Shown here: in pieces, positions 34,343 through 40,032 of the stretch
Layout of the letters: every line of letters begins with the position of its first letter
Numbering within the stretch: position 1 is the first letter of the stretch
NCBI GenBank assembly: GCA_021827405.1
Contig: JAKAVY010000013.1
Location: forward strand, 1 to 41,106
Length of the DNA stretch: 41,106 bases
DNA from: Thermoplasmata archaeon
GTDB lineage: Archaea; Thermoplasmatota; Thermoplasmata; Lutacidiplasmatales; UBA184
Direction of reading: 5' to 3'
Translations under genes and position numbers: made by a program
Notes under the pieces: generated by a model
The model's input: only the letters and a program-made list of their open reading frames with translations
What the model was told of the DNA's origin: nothing
Database searches by the model: none

Positions 34343-36709
34343 CTATCGTCCCCGCCGCCGGGCTTGGTTGGCCATCAGGCGGACGAAGCGGGGGTCCTTC
34401 CGCACGACGTCGAGCAAGGGGGAGTAGAGCAGTTCGATGTAAGGCAGCACGTGGAGCTCTTGGGCCCGTCCCATGGCCGAGAAGAAGGCTTCCCGGTCGC
34501 CGAGGTTCAGGTGGACGTACCCCTCCAGGAAGACGGCGATCTTGGCCTTGCCGGCGAGGGCTTGGAGCCGGGCGATGGATTCCCGGGCCTCTCGCTCGTT
34601 CCCGCGCCGGGCCTCGAGAATGCCCCGCCAGGCTTCCGTCCACGCGTTCTCCGGGGCCAAGGCCTGCATCTGGGTCAGGGTCCCCGCGGCACTCTCGAGG
34701 TCTCCTTTCCCCAGGAAGTACTCCGTACGGTGAGTGGCGGTCCTGAAGGGAGCGAGAGTCTCGCTCTGCCGCCAATACTGGAGCGCGTCCGCCTCCCGGC
34801 CGGCATACAGGTAGAGCCTCCCCAACAGCGCGATCACGGTGACATCGAGGGGATCGATCTTAAGGGCCCGTTCGAGCAGGCCGACCGCCTCGTGGATCTT
34901 GCCGTTCCCGGCCACCACCTGGAAGAGCGTCCGGTACGGGCCGGAGAGGTTCGGATTGAGCTCGATGGCCCGACGTGCCTCGTTCTCGGCGAGGACGAAC
35001 TCGTCCTGGGCCAAGTGAAGCAGGGCCAGGGAGGAGTGGGCCTCCGCCAGGCCCTCGTTCTGCCGGAGGGCGCCCGTCAGCTCCTCCCGGGCTCGCTCGA
35101 AAGCGGTGTCGGTCGGTTCGGCGCCTTCGTTCCCCAGCCAGAACCAGCAGTCCGCGATCCCCACCCGGGCGCGCCCGAAAGCCGGGTCCCGGGCCGCGGC
35201 CCGCTCAAAGTAGGAGAGCGCCTGACGGACCGAGGCGACGGTCCGTTGCTCCCCCAGGCTCTTTCGTCCGTGCAGGTAATCGGTGTAGGCCACCAGGTCC
35301 TGGGTGTCGGAGGCAAAGGAGGGAGGGGGCAAGATCTCCTTGGGGCCGGCCCCGGAGAAGTGCTCCGAGACCGCGCGGGCGATCTCCCCGGCAATGTCGT
35401 CCTGGAGGGCGAAGATATCGTCCAGGACCCGGTCGTAGCGGGCGGACCAGATCGGCTCCTCGGTGGCGGTGTCGATGAGCTGGGCCGTGATCCTCAGGCG
35501 GTTGCCGGCCTTGCGAAGGCTGCACTCCGCCACGGTCCCGACCTGCAACATCCGCCCGATCTCCAAGGCGGTCTCCCGTCGGTCCTTGAAGTGCATCGCC
35601 GTGGTCCGGGCGATCACCCTCAGTCCGGGCACGTGGGCGAGCTTGCCAATGAGCTCCTCGGTCATCCCGTCCGCAAGATAATCCTCGCTCGGGTCCGGGG
35701 AGATGTTGGTGAAAGGGAGGACGACCAGGCGACGGGGGTCGAGCGTGAGCGGCGGGGGTGGAGAGGCCGGGGCCGCCGGTCGGGCCCCCGGACCCGAAGT
35801 GGATCCGAGGTCGACATGGAGGAAGGCGTTGAGCAGCGGGCCCCGGTCCTGGGCGGACCGCGCCCAGAAGTCCTTGTTCTCCGGGTCTCCGGCGCTGAAC
35901 AGGTAGTCGTAGCGGATCCGGTCCTCGCCCACCGGGACCCGCTGGGCGCACTGGGTGGCCAGGCTCCTCAGTTGCCGGGCGCTGGCGAGGGAGGGATGGG
36001 TGGCCACATAGAACAGGGCGAACTTCTCGATCTCGTGGATCTCCCTACCCTCTTCCCGGCTGGCCTCAAGGAGCTGGGTCGCCAGCACCAGGATGCGATC
36101 GCCGGCCCCTAGGGGGTCCACGGTGAACTCGTTGCCCCTCCCGATCCGGCTGAGGAGGTCCTCTCCCTTGGGTCGGGCGCGCAGGCGGTCCTTCATCGCG
36201 GAGAGACTGTTGCCCCCGCTACCGGCGAGGCAGAAGACGAGGGGGTAGGGCCGGGGGACCGTCGGCTCCAGGTAAGGGAGGAGCACCTCGTACGGCCAGG
36301 GTTCCGCGGGTTTCGCGTCGATCTCGTCGAGGAGACAGAGGACCGGGTGGGGAAGGGCGTTGAGCTCGTCCAGCCCAGAGAGGAGGGCCGGCCGGTCGAG
36401 CTTCGCGAGGTTCAGCTCCCGGTACCCCACCAAGGGACCGGCGACCCGGGCGATCTGCTGGATCAGGTAGCTCTTCCCGGCCCCGGGTGAACCCCAGAGG
36501 AGGAAGTTGCTCGGGTGGGCCCGCGGGCTCTGGAGCCCGGCGAGGATGCGCTGCCGCAGGTCCTTGAGGGCATGGCGCGTGGGCTCCTCGAACCGGACGT
36601 AGGGTCCGACGACCGAGTAGTGGTCCAGTAGGAGGGCATCCAGGGAAGCGAGCAGACGGGCGACCTCGGCCCGGCCGGAAGCCTCGCCGGCGGGGGAGGG
36701 GGTCGGCAT
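34343..36709 (-). CDS. AAA+ ATPase - TolB-like - TPR multidomain protein
   Basis: A 788-residue protein with three parts. Residues ~20-290 are an AAA+ ATPase: Walker A GSPGAGKS at 73-80, Walker B LCLLDEID at 124-131, the sensor region LVFCLAGSGGNSLSAMKDRL and the helical lid SARQLRSLATQC at 243-254. After a Pro-rich linker, residues ~328-451 match the FlgO/TolB-N-like domain found in bacterial adenylate-cyclase and TPR signalling proteins (LVVLPFTNISPDPSEDYLAD, GMTEELIGKLAHVPGLRVIA, RITAQLIDTATEEPIWSARY). The remainder, to the end, is TPR-like helical repeats. I know the last two parts together from bacteria; with an AAA+ head in an archaeon the combination is unusual. The start at 36709 is supported by CTTAAC about 31 nt upstream. 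No membrane segment. Function unknown. Confidence 0.85.
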   Translation of the reverse strand: MPTPSPAGEASGRAEVARLLASLDALLLDHYSVVGPYVRFEEPTRHALKDLRQRILAGLQSPRAHPSNFLLWGSPGAGKSYLIQQIARVAGPLVGYRELNLAKLDRPALLSGLDELNALPHPVLCLLDEIDAKPAEPWPYEVLLPYLEPTVPRPYPLVFCLAGSGGNSLSAMKDRLRARPKGEDLLSRIGRGNEFTVDPLGAGDRILVLATQLLEASREEGREIHEIEKFALFYVATHPSLASARQLRSLATQCAQRVPVGEDRIRYDYLFSAGDPENKDFWARSAQDRGPLLNAFLHVDLGSTSGPGARPAAPASPPPPLTLDPRRLVVLPFTNISPDPSEDYLADGMTEELIGKLAHVPGLRVIARTTAMHFKDRRETALEIGRMLQVGTVAECSLRKAGNRLRITAQLIDTATEEPIWSARYDRVLDDIFALQDDIAGEIARAVSEHFSGAGPKEILPPPSFASDTQDLVAYTDYLHGRKSLGEQRTVASVRQALSYFERAAARDPAFGRARVGIADCWFWLGNEGAEPTDTAFERAREELTGALRQNEGLAEAHSSLALLHLAQDEFVLAENEARRAIELNPNLSGPYRTLFQVVAGNGKIHEAVGLLERALKIDPLDVTVIALLGRLYLYAGREADALQYWRQSETLAPFRTATHRTEYFLGKGDLESAAGTLTQMQALAPENAWTEAWRGILEARRGNEREARESIARLQALAGKAKIAVFLEGYVHLNLGDREAFFSAMGRAQELHVLPYIELLYSPLLDVVRKDPRFVRLMANQARRRGR

Positions 36710-36744: not shown

Positions 36745-37186
36745 CGTTTGGGCGGCGGAGACGGGACCTGAAGGGGGCCCGCCCCCCGGGCTCCCCAACC
36801 GCCCCCCTCGCCAGGTTGGCGGGGAGGCAGGGGGCGGGACAGGGGGTCGCCACGAGGGAAGGGAGGACGCTGATGGGGCTCCCACGTTGAACATCGTCCC
36901 CACCGAATGGGAGCGACGCGTGGCGGCCCGCAAGGCGGCCCTCCGAGCGAGACGAGGCCCGTCATAGGACTCTGGACGAGAGCCCATCCTCGTTACTAGA
37001 AGAGAGGGCTCCCCCCTCGGTAGGGGGGCCTCAGCGGGTCAGGGCTGACCCCAAGCACGTGGCGAGACACCAAGCGAAGGTCGGGGGCCTCTTGGGGTGC
37101 CCCCTGGGGGAACGGGTAGAGCGACCCACACCGGGCCCTGCGTTCACCGGAGGTCCCACGGGAACGGGGAAGGATGCGGTTTCCGG
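36745..37186. other. Divergent intergenic stretch with a GC hairpin
   Basis: No gene is seen. It holds a perfect 7-bp hairpin, CCCCCCT (37011-37017), loop CGGT, AGGGGGG (37022-37028). The sequence between the AAA+ promoter and the hairpin has no clear motif. Confidence 0.4.
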
Positions 37187-37196
37187 TTCAAATACC
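37187..37196 (+). promoter_or_regulatory. TATA-like element for the aspartic-protease gene
   Basis: TTCAAATACC, centred 26 nt before ATG 37218; predicts leaderless transcription. Confidence 0.5.
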
Positions 37197-37217
37197 GCCC
37201 GCGGGTGCGACCTGCGG

Positions 37218-38033
37218 ATGAGTTCTACGGTGCCGTTCTCTCGGGTCGCCCAGCACCTGGTCGCGATCCCCACGACTGCGAGCGGGGGTCTGCGTTCCCG
37301 GTTCCTCCTTGACACGGGGATTGGGGTGAACCTCGTGTTCCAGGCGTTCGCGGGCCGGATGGGAGTCATCCCCACCGGCGAAACGTTTACCGGTCGAAGG
37401 ATGTCCGGTCAACCCATCCCTTTGGGGATGGGCCGGCTCCCTTCCCTCCGCGTTGGAGACCTGGAAGTTCGGGACGTGCCGGTAGGCGTCCATGAAATGG
37501 GGAACCTTCCCCGGGGCATGGAAGACGTCGCGGGAATCCTGTCTCTCGGGTTCTTCGATAGGGTTCCTTTCACGATCGACTACCCCCGAGGGGAGGTCAG
37601 GATCGGTGTCGACCCCAGGGGAAGCGGAGTCCCGGTCCCGATCCGGCTGATCCGGGAGGGCCCGTCGGTGTCAGCCTATCTGCGGATGTTGATTCCCGGT
37701 GACCGCACGGTGGAGGTCGAAGTGGATTCAGGGACGGACGTCCTGATCCTGCACTCGAAGCTCATGGCTGGGCTCGGGGTCGACCCCCAGGCTCCCTCGA
37801 CCCAAAGACGCGAGGGGACGGACGAGACCGGCTTCCGGTACACTCGGTATTTTTCCACCCTTCACGGGCAGGTACGCCTCGAAGGCGCTCCGGAGATCTC
37901 CCAGTCGGACCCCAGGGCAATGTTCCAAGAGATCATCTATGACGGACTCATCGGGGATGAGTTCCTTCGACAGTTTGCGGTCACCTTTGACCTGGAGCGC
38001 TCGACGTTGGTCTTCCAGAGGACCATCGGGTAG
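37218..38033 (+). CDS. Bilobal aspartic protease-like protein
   Basis: A 271-residue protein with two copies of a retropepsin-like lobe. Lobe 1 has FLLDTG (Asp32-Thr-Gly) and ends VAGILSLGFFDRVPFTIDYP; lobe 2 has VEVDSGTDVLILH (Asp170-Ser-Gly) and ends DGLIGDEFLRQFAVTFDLER. Two D-T/S-G motifs about 138 residues apart are what a single-chain aspartic protease needs, and the repeated hydrophobic-G...F...F/VT-I/F-D ending suggests internal duplication. No signal peptide or membrane helix is seen, so it should be cytosolic, unlike pepsins. Enzyme activity is inferred, not certain. The ATG at 37218 is preferred because of the TATA-like element 26 nt upstream. Its base composition is a little less GC-rich than the neighbours. 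Confidence 0.78.
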   Translation: MSSTVPFSRVAQHLVAIPTTASGGLRSRFLLDTGIGVNLVFQAFAGRMGVIPTGETFTGRRMSGQPIPLGMGRLPSLRVGDLEVRDVPVGVHEMGNLPRGMEDVAGILSLGFFDRVPFTIDYPRGEVRIGVDPRGSGVPVPIRLIREGPSVSAYLRMLIPGDRTVEVEVDSGTDVLILHSKLMAGLGVDPQAPSTQRREGTDETGFRYTRYFSTLHGQVRLEGAPEISQSDPRAMFQEIIYDGLIGDEFLRQFAVTFDLERSTLVFQRTIG

Positions 38034-38053: not shown

Positions 38054-38656
38054 GAGGGAGGGGGGACTTGGGCGGAGGGAGACTAAGGTCGGCCGGTCCA
38101 CCGGAGGGGGGAAGTGCAGGTTCGCCGCCATGTTAAGCCCCGCGGTGTCGAAGATACGCCCTCTATTATGGAGTCCCAGAGCTAAATGTTCGCAGCGGCC
38201 AGGTTTGGGAAGGGGGCCGCGTGGAACCGGAGACCCCTTTCTGATGGGGGCCTCCCGGGGGGTCGTAAAGCGAACTAGGCTACACGTTCAGGATCCGGTG
38301 CGGAGAGGTCCCTTCGCCCTTCAGGAAACAGCCTTCCTTCGACTCGGGCATGGACCCTCTGCCGGGCCTCCTTCGAGCTTGGCCCCTCGGTCTCGGACCC
38401 GGCCCGATGACGTAGGGACGGTCCCGTGGGGGATCGAAAGGCGGCATGATCGGGTCGGTCCTACCCGGTCTGGCCGCAGAAGGCTTCAAGTCAGTCGAGT
38501 TGTGTCCTCGGCGTCCTGGGGAGGCGTGATCCCGGAACCGGAAAGGAACCTTGAACTGCCCACAGGGGACCCGTTCCCGCCTGTTCACTCCCGGAGGTGA
38601 AGGCGCGCAGACGGTGAACGGGTGCCAAGTTCTCACTGCCGTGGGCGAAATGGATC
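38054..38656. other. Gene-poor stretch before tRNA-Arg
   Basis: About 600 nt without a credible gene; short frames on both strands have no motif. A TATA-like TCTATTATGG near 38162-38171 is followed by a GCGGCC/GGCCGC hairpin at 38195-38220, which could mark a small RNA, but this is weak. No TATA-like element is visible just before the tRNA. Confidence 0.35.
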
Positions 38657-38730
38657 GGGCCCGTAGTATAGCTTGGATATCACAGGGGCCTCCGGAGCCT
38701 CAGACCCGGGTTCGAATCCCGGCGGGCCCG
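38657..38730 (+). tRNA. tRNA-Arg (anticodon CCG), likely integration site
   Basis: Acceptor GGGCCCG/CGGGCCC, anticodon stem GGGGC/GCCTC around loop CTCCGGA (anticodon CCG, for CGG codons), T-arm CCGGG-TTCGAAT-CCCGG, discriminator G; no encoded CCA. The D-stem has only two normal pairs and the variable loop is 4 nt, so it may be weakened. The integrase gene starts 43 nt after its 3' end, the usual place of integrated elements. Confidence 0.88.
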
Positions 38731-38740
38731 TCCCCATAAA

Positions 38741-38750
38741 GGTATAAGAC
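38741..38750 (+). promoter_or_regulatory. TATA box for the integrase gene
   Basis: GGTATAAGAC, with TATAAG centred 27-28 nt before ATG 38773, so the mRNA should be leaderless. It lies 13-18 nt after the tRNA end. Confidence 0.6.
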
Positions 38751-38772
38751 CTATTGTGGCTTGACCCATTCC

Positions 38773-40032
38773 ATGGCCCCCAAGGGCTCTCCACCGACCG
38801 ATTCGGCCTTGCTGGCCTGGTATCGAAACACCGCCAACGGTTCCCGAATTACCGCGGACGTGTACCGCCGCCGCCTGGCCGCCTTCTGTCGGGAGATGAG
38901 CACGAGCCCCGCGGGCCTCGCCAATCTCACCGATAAGGACCTCAGGGACCTTATGGTGTCCTTCGTCGACCGGGAGGCTGGGAAAGGACGGGCCCGATCG
39001 TACATCGAGTCCAGCCTGAAGGCCGTACGCTCCTGGCTCCTGCACCACGGACGCAAGGCGAGCCTCCCCGTCAAGATCCCGGTCACCGGGATCTCGGAAC
39101 GCCTCGAATCGGAAGAGATTCCCACGCCGGCCCAACTAAGGGCGGCCCTGATGGCCGCCACCCCGAACGAACGCCTCACCTGCGCCCTGATGGCCTTTTC
39201 AGGGCTCCGCCCCGGGGCCATCGGGAACTATCTCGGCAACGACGGCCTCAGGATTTCCGACCTTATCGGCGTAAAGGTTCAGGGCGGCAGGCTCGAGGTT
39301 CCAGAGCCTCCTCTCCGAATCAGGGTCCGGGCCACGAACTCCAAGGCCGGGCACGCCTACTACACGTTCCTCGGGGAGGAGGGGGTCGAGTACCTGCGCA
39401 GCGTCCTTCAAGCGCGTTTGGAGAAAGGGGAGGAACTCGGCCCGGACACCGACGTGATCCATCCGTACCGGACCGAAAAGAAGTTCATTCGGACCATGAA
39501 CGTCGGGGACCAGGTGCGGCTTGCGCTCCGGCGGGTCGGGATTCCAGCCCGCCCCTACGTCCTGCGGTCATACTTCGCCTCTCGGTTGCTGGAGGCTCAG
39601 AACGCGGGAAAGGTCTCTAGGGACTACAGCGAATACTGGATGGGTCACCGCGGGGGGGTGACAGAGCAGCATTACACCGTCGGCAGGGCGCGCCTCACGG
39701 AAAGCCTCATCAACTCCATGCGCGAAGCCTACCAGCGGTGCGACCCTTACCTCTCCACTCTACCGACCAAGTACCGGGGAGGAGGGAACACCGAGGCCTT
39801 CCGGGTGCTGCTCTCCGCATACTACACGGACGAGGAGGTCGGGAAGATCGACCTCACGGACACGGCGGCCGTGATTGAGGCACTCCGCAGGGGGGCCGCG
39901 AAGACCGCCACCCAGGCCGGGCCGAAGCAGCAGGTGATTGCGGAGGCCGAGCTCCCCCGATACCTCGCTGACGGCTGGGTCGCTAGGATGCCCGTCAATG
40001 GCTCGAAGTTCGTTGTCGAACGGATGGGGTGA
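38773..40032 (+). CDS. int: Tyrosine recombinase / integrase
   Basis: About 419 residues. An N-terminal SAM-like core-binding domain (residues ~5-100: TADVYRRRLAAFCREMS; LRDLMVSFVDREAGKGRARS) is followed by the catalytic domain. Likely active-site residues are Arg146 (SGLRPGAI), Lys191, Arg265 in RPYVLRSYFASRLLEAQ, His292 (MGHRGG) and the nucleophile Tyr301 in EQHYTVGR. The usual His before the second Arg is Tyr262, a common archaeal change. A C-terminal extension of about 100 residues ends KQQVIAEAELPRYLADGWVA, found in integrases of related archaeal elements. It should catalyse site-specific recombination at the tRNA-Arg. The reading frame is intact. The start rests on the TATA box 27-28 nt upstream; a TTG 12 nt earlier is possible. 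Confidence 0.9.
   Translation: MAPKGSPPTDSALLAWYRNTANGSRITADVYRRRLAAFCREMSTSPAGLANLTDKDLRDLMVSFVDREAGKGRARSYIESSLKAVRSWLLHHGRKASLPVKIPVTGISERLESEEIPTPAQLRAALMAATPNERLTCALMAFSGLRPGAIGNYLGNDGLRISDLIGVKVQGGRLEVPEPPLRIRVRATNSKAGHAYYTFLGEEGVEYLRSVLQARLEKGEELGPDTDVIHPYRTEKKFIRTMNVGDQVRLALRRVGIPARPYVLRSYFASRLLEAQNAGKVSRDYSEYWMGHRGGVTEQHYTVGRARLTESLINSMREAYQRCDPYLSTLPTKYRGGGNTEAFRVLLSAYYTDEEVGKIDLTDTAAVIEALRRGAAKTATQAGPKQQVIAEAELPRYLADGWVARMPVNGSKFVVERMG

Follow-up and report, generated by a model that had tools for sequence, protein, structure and literature searches.

We describe here a 788-residue archaeal protein that carries an AAA+ ATPase as the head of a TolB-like plus TPR body. The balance of evidence leans, by a modest margin, toward a cytosolic one-component signaling protein in which a ring-forming AAA+ ATPase has taken the place of the cyclase output. 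The head is a member of an undescribed AAA+ module family found in Thermoplasmata, Bathyarchaeota, Chloroflexota, Actinomycetota, and ANGP1. Judging from sequence comparisons, the larger point would be a mobile AAA+ signaling module occupying the same positions as cyclases. The gene lies in a 41,106-nucleotide stretch, referred to as the window, from a Thermoplasmata archaeon (assembly of 1.82 Mb, 71 contigs), and has the following features:

34343..36709, minus strand: AAA+ / TolB-like / TPR protein, 788 amino acids (ORF and translation; 82% identical ortholog; dN/dS 0.14).
35810..36709, minus strand: AAA+ ATPase head, residues 1-300 (alignments; model pLDDT 92; PDB fold matches to ring AAA+ ATPases; motif check), with Walker A at 73-80, Walker B at 123-129, a sensor-1 strand at 157-164, a lid at 202-257, the Arg-finger position R188 in RPKGxDLLSR, the sensor-2 residue R245 (SARQLR) within the lid, and after the lid the family signature YDxLFxxGDxxNKxFW at 267-282.
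35345..35743, minus strand: TolB/FlgO-like alpha/beta segment, residues about 323-455 (alignment; weak FlgO/TolB_N matches in relatives; CadC fold match of the body).
34355..35302, minus strand: TPR helical array, residues about 470-785 (Pfam TPR matches; about 8 helix pairs in the model).

The reading frame runs from an ATG at 36709 to a stop at 34343. A longer alternative begins with a GTG at 36853; the ATG, though, is common to the window gene and its 82%-identical ortholog from the same genus. These two genes differ mostly at third codon positions (287 of 455 differences), and dN/dS values of 0.14 overall, 0.14 for the head, and 0.13 for the body indicate purifying selection. A preliminary description of this DNA had read the order AAA+, TolB-like, TPR from the sequence and proposed looking for it elsewhere; the ORF, the motifs, the Pfam TPR match, and the predicted structure all bear the order out, and it recurs in eight further genomes, with the reverse order in four. 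The arrangement is thus neither chance nor an assembly chimera, and a chimera is also ruled out by the orthologs and by selection on the window gene. In the whole-protein AlphaFold model (pLDDT 84.5), a linker of low confidence (303-320) joins the AAA+ domain (1-300) to an alpha/beta segment (324-451), and pairs of helices follow up to residue 785. The window protein has no transmembrane segment (top 19-residue hydropathy, 1.22), so membrane anchoring was dismissed. A defense-system reading was also set aside, as PADLOC gave no match for the window protein.

By its motifs, the window head is a complete, canonical AAA+ ATPase. Walker A reads G73-S-P-G-A-G-K-S80 and Walker B L-C-L-L-D128-E129, and in an alignment of 26 relatives K79, D128, and E129 are invariant, as expected of AAA+ Walker motifs. 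The same alignment shows K181, G182, D184, and R188 (RPKGxDLLxRI) and R245 (SARQLR) to be invariant and the C-terminal signature almost wholly so. By position in the model, R188, which directly follows helix 182-187 and precedes strand 194-197, takes the classical Arg-finger place, and R245, which opens helix 244-257, takes the sensor-2 place in the lid. The Pfam AAA match is weak in the window protein (0.003) and reaches 6e-12 in the best family members. The head resembles ring-type AAA+ ATPases (Cdc48/Vps4, RuvB, NtrC, ClpX) in its Walker motifs, Arg-finger position, sensor 2, lid, and fold, and it differs from them in having its own post-lid signature and in sitting on signaling scaffolds. 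Its nearest PDB folds are spastin, RuvB, p97, NtrC1, and ClpX, with Cdc6/ORC also among the matches; TM scores are about 0.5-0.64, and no one family is closest. In sequence profile comparison, the P-loop half is nearest to Cdc48/Vps4-type AAA. No curated family spanning the whole module was found: matches are to generic AAA models, and the module has no Pfam family of its own. A plasmid search with the head gave no match, and plasmid origin was dropped; a viral origin was likewise rejected, since the sole match was one fragment of 25% identity, which we read as generic P-loop similarity.

The body is homologous end to end with the TolB-like plus TPR one-component signaling proteins. Its TPR array matches Pfam at 1.9e-15. 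The TolB-like part has no Pfam match in the window protein itself; in close relatives it gives weak matches to FlgO (0.002) and TolB_N (0.006), and its profile finds no meaningful match among PDB sequences. Foldseek pairs the predicted body structure with CadC's sensory domain (3LY7, 3LY8, 3LY9, 3LYA; TM up to 0.65) and also with generic TPR superhelices. This periplasmic domain is the signal-input domain of CadC (PMC3096576). The window body thus folds like the sensory domain of the CadC/ToxR-like regulators (TM, 0.62-0.65), which join it to a winged helix and a transmembrane segment, whereas the window protein has neither and bears an AAA+ head. The body is also of the same type as in the class III cyclase (CHD)-TolB-like-TPR proteins of rhizobia and, as seen here, Thermoplasmata. 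Within its own archaeal family, it is 45-47% identical to cyclase-headed bodies, and the difference lies in the head, an AAA+ ATPase instead of a cyclase or winged helix. The preliminary description held that such bodies usually bear a cyclase or DNA-binding head and that an AAA+ head is unusual, and both archaeal and bacterial relatives agree. A TolB-like segment is present, and no described family with the AAA+/TolB-like/TPR order was found in the family libraries searched. In the open-licence literature, we found no account of a protein with this order, nor of any AAA+ module swapping with cyclases.

Where else does the module occur? A pattern-based scan across 84,980 species genomes gave 27 loci and will have missed diverged members. 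Nine loci are archaeal proteins with a TolB-TPR body (8 AAA-TolB-TPR and 1 TolB-TPR-AAA). Ten are alpha/beta-hydrolase-AAA proteins from Thermoplasmata, Bathyarchaeota, Dehalococcoidia and other Chloroflexota, and ANGP1. In Actinobacteria and Chloroflexota there are 2 AAA-STAND-TPR proteins and 1 AAA-cyclase-STAND protein, the latter a Chloroflexota chain (L051, 5947-9528) that holds the AAA+ module, a class III cyclase, and a STAND NTPase together. One further locus is REC-AAA, and 4 of the 27 have no identifiable partner domain (2 AAA-only, 1 truncated, and 1 apparently degenerate). In one Chloroflexota stand-alone module (L039, 5773-6849), the N-terminal ∼70 amino acids contain no recognized domain. 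At another locus (L055, 5983-7755), the module lacks a proper start and continues into a gene for a signal peptide and peptidase A4; it is probably a decaying copy that reads through into the neighboring gene. In whole-genome searches, carriers made up 21 of 400 Thermoplasmata-class genomes, compared with 1 among 400 genomes from the phylum to which the Chloroflexi locus L051 belongs.

All 23 loci with an identifiable partner are on cyclase-type scaffolds. On TolB-TPR the module can be at either end; it follows alpha/beta-hydrolases, precedes STAND-TPR, and in one case comes after REC. When relatives of the alpha/beta-hydrolase and STAND-TPR scaffolds were collected without regard to the AAA+ module, most had a cyclase in the corresponding position: C-terminal in 15 of 22 alpha/beta-hydrolase ORFs and N-terminal (CHD-STAND) in 21 of 31 STAND-TPR ORFs. 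The first of these scaffolds, alpha/beta-hydrolase-class III cyclase, is of the Rv1900c type, and its relatives bear a window-type AAA+ module precisely in the cyclase position, in the cyclase's stead. Among STAND NTPase-TPR proteins of the CHD-STAND-TPR type, bacterial relatives have the AAA+ module before STAND-TPR, either replacing the CHD or alongside it; the window protein differs from them in having no STAND domain. On TolB-TPR, a CHD is found in 38 of 56 bodies; most bodies from the window's own family bear a cyclase at the N terminus, and bacterial TolB-TPR bodies have a cyclase or winged-helix head. Some bodies instead have the head at the C-terminal end (AAA+ in L049, L073, L075, and L076; cyclase in L090). 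The archaeal cyclase heads keep their metal aspartates and other catalytic residues in 36 to 38 of 38 cases. The AAA+ module need not replace a cyclase everywhere, since L051 carries both.

Sequence trees show that heads and bodies have been exchanged repeatedly in Thermoplasmata. Whereas the Thermoplasmata N-terminal AAA+ heads fall into one clade (98/92), the bodies beneath them are interspersed with cyclase-headed ones, and a single clade of these AAA+-headed bodies is rejected by 560 log units (p-AU, 2.3e-6); heads and bodies have therefore recombined repeatedly. Recombination as such had been suggested in the preliminary description. On the body tree (56 rows), the N-terminal AAA+ label requires 8 changes, at least 7 of them on starred branches, and the window body and its ortholog cluster with four cyclase-headed bodies (100/100), one of them from the same genus. 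Because sampling of the bodies relied on similarity to the window protein, the counts are biased; the incongruence is not. The cyclase may be the older head, given its wider spread, with the direction not fixed by these unrooted trees. The preliminary description had also suggested that the protein was perhaps acquired from bacteria. That is not supported for the window head: its nearest relatives all come from archaea, each of the 14 N-terminal heads on TolB-TPR is archaeal and falls in its clade, the bacterial modules cluster weakly (78/31), and there is no sign of a bacterial source.

The block GNAT - OB-fold - window gene, next to a conserved gene cluster, is shared with the sister species only. 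A genome of the same genus (G002) and two family members (G003 and G008) have the conserved cluster without the window gene in the DNA compared, which for G003 stops at a contig edge ∼2 kb further on. Outside the sister-species block we found no conserved operon partner or neighbor that would hint at a target, and most matches in the flanks are shadow frames. Divergent from the window gene, at 37059-38033 on the plus strand, is a gene for an archaeal retropepsin-like aspartyl protease (PF13650, 6e-14). At 38656-40032, a tRNA-Arg(CCG) is followed 28 bases later, on the same strand, by a tyrosine-recombinase (XerC/D-like) gene, likely the edge of an integrative element that extends to the contig end.

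Among the genomes compared, mostly MAGs, no class III cyclase is detectable in 15 of the 19 archaeal genomes with the module. These include the window genome, in the whole of which PF00211 was not found either. Carriers and non-carriers do not differ in how often they have cyclases (4 of 13 carriers versus 9 of 21 non-carriers; p = 0.72), so the module is not simply a substitute for a lost cAMP pathway, and mutual exclusion of the two per genome was not seen; three archaeal genomes (G030, G283, and G289) have AAA+ proteins and several cyclases each. The cyclases themselves are expanded in several Thermoplasmata genomes (G002, G006, G008, G013, G018, G022, G030, and G031; loci L007-L030 and L089-L107), with up to 12 per genome and catalytic residues intact; class III cyclases are reported to be scarce in archaea (PMC8646023). 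Strong cNMP-binding proteins (E < 1e-17, a threshold picked post hoc) occur in 8 of 10 cyclase genomes versus 0 of 31 cyclase-free ones (p = 5e-7), and cyclic-nucleotide signaling in these archaea is probable.

If the AAA+ head is an output, how might it work? From its CadC fold and its cyclase relatives, we infer that the body senses and self-associates; the heads would form a ring, and their ATPase activity would be the output. Binding of a signal to the body would alter self-association and bring the AAA+ heads together, the Arg finger (R188) of a neighbor would complete each ATP site, and ATP hydrolysis would remodel a target. The ATP-driven scaffold that the preliminary description suggested would be compatible with the observations. 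In both class III cyclases and AAA+ ATPases, the active site is formed between subunits, a shared trait that would account for one scaffold being able to drive either head. A broader proposal is that the module is a general signaling output that takes the position of class III cyclases in Thermoplasmata, Bathyarchaeota, and Chloroflexota, on three or more sensor scaffolds unrelated to one another, and that exchange of the head replaces second-messenger signaling with direct, ATP-driven remodeling. We hold this tentatively, at slightly less than even chances.

The strongest competitor, which we consider unlikely but worth keeping in view, gives the AAA+ module a regulatory or chaperone role: driven by ATP, it would switch other cyclases or effectors in trans, with TolB-TPR as a target-binding arm. 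The single chain of L051 and the three archaeal genomes with both kinds of protein would fit such a role. Against it, no class III cyclase is detectable in most archaeal module genomes, the window's included, and many modules are on scaffolds that offer nothing else in cis to regulate. Alternatively, the head could act on nucleic acids, in the manner of DnaA, Cdc6, or NtrC, and the protein could be an ATP-dependent regulator of transcription or replication. NtrC1 and Cdc6/ORC are among its fold matches, the winged-helix heads of bacterial TolB-TPR proteins provide a parallel, and the NCBIfam Hda (DnaA family) model matches the head at 1.5e-5, although at 24.6 of 194.8 bits this match is well under the curated cutoff. 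No DNA-binding domain is seen after the lid, and the sequence profiles favor Cdc48/Vps4-type AAA; we regard this role as improbable.

Least probable of all, with only a slim chance of being right, is the STAND-like sensor raised in the preliminary description, in which the head would be a monomeric ATP switch that oligomerizes once when the TPRs bind a ligand. STAND proteins typically have TPR sensor arrays, and a minority of relatives give weak nSTAND/NACHT matches. The label is nonetheless unsupported, because the head is a canonical AAA+ domain with an Arg-finger position and sensor 2, both invariant, and the window protein matches no STAND model; the STAND hallmark, absence of an Arg finger, does not apply. 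True STAND modules are separate in the bacterial relatives, and in L050, L051, and L053 the AAA+ module adjoins a genuine STAND NTPase.

If the AAA+ module is truly an output, it would be a new kind of effector in one-component signaling, common to archaea and bacteria. Thermoplasmata would then offer a natural experiment, with related bodies, even in one genus, under either a cyclase or an AAA+ head. With such head pairs it becomes directly testable which signals the TolB-TPR body, common yet hardly understood, responds to and by what means it controls the attached enzyme.
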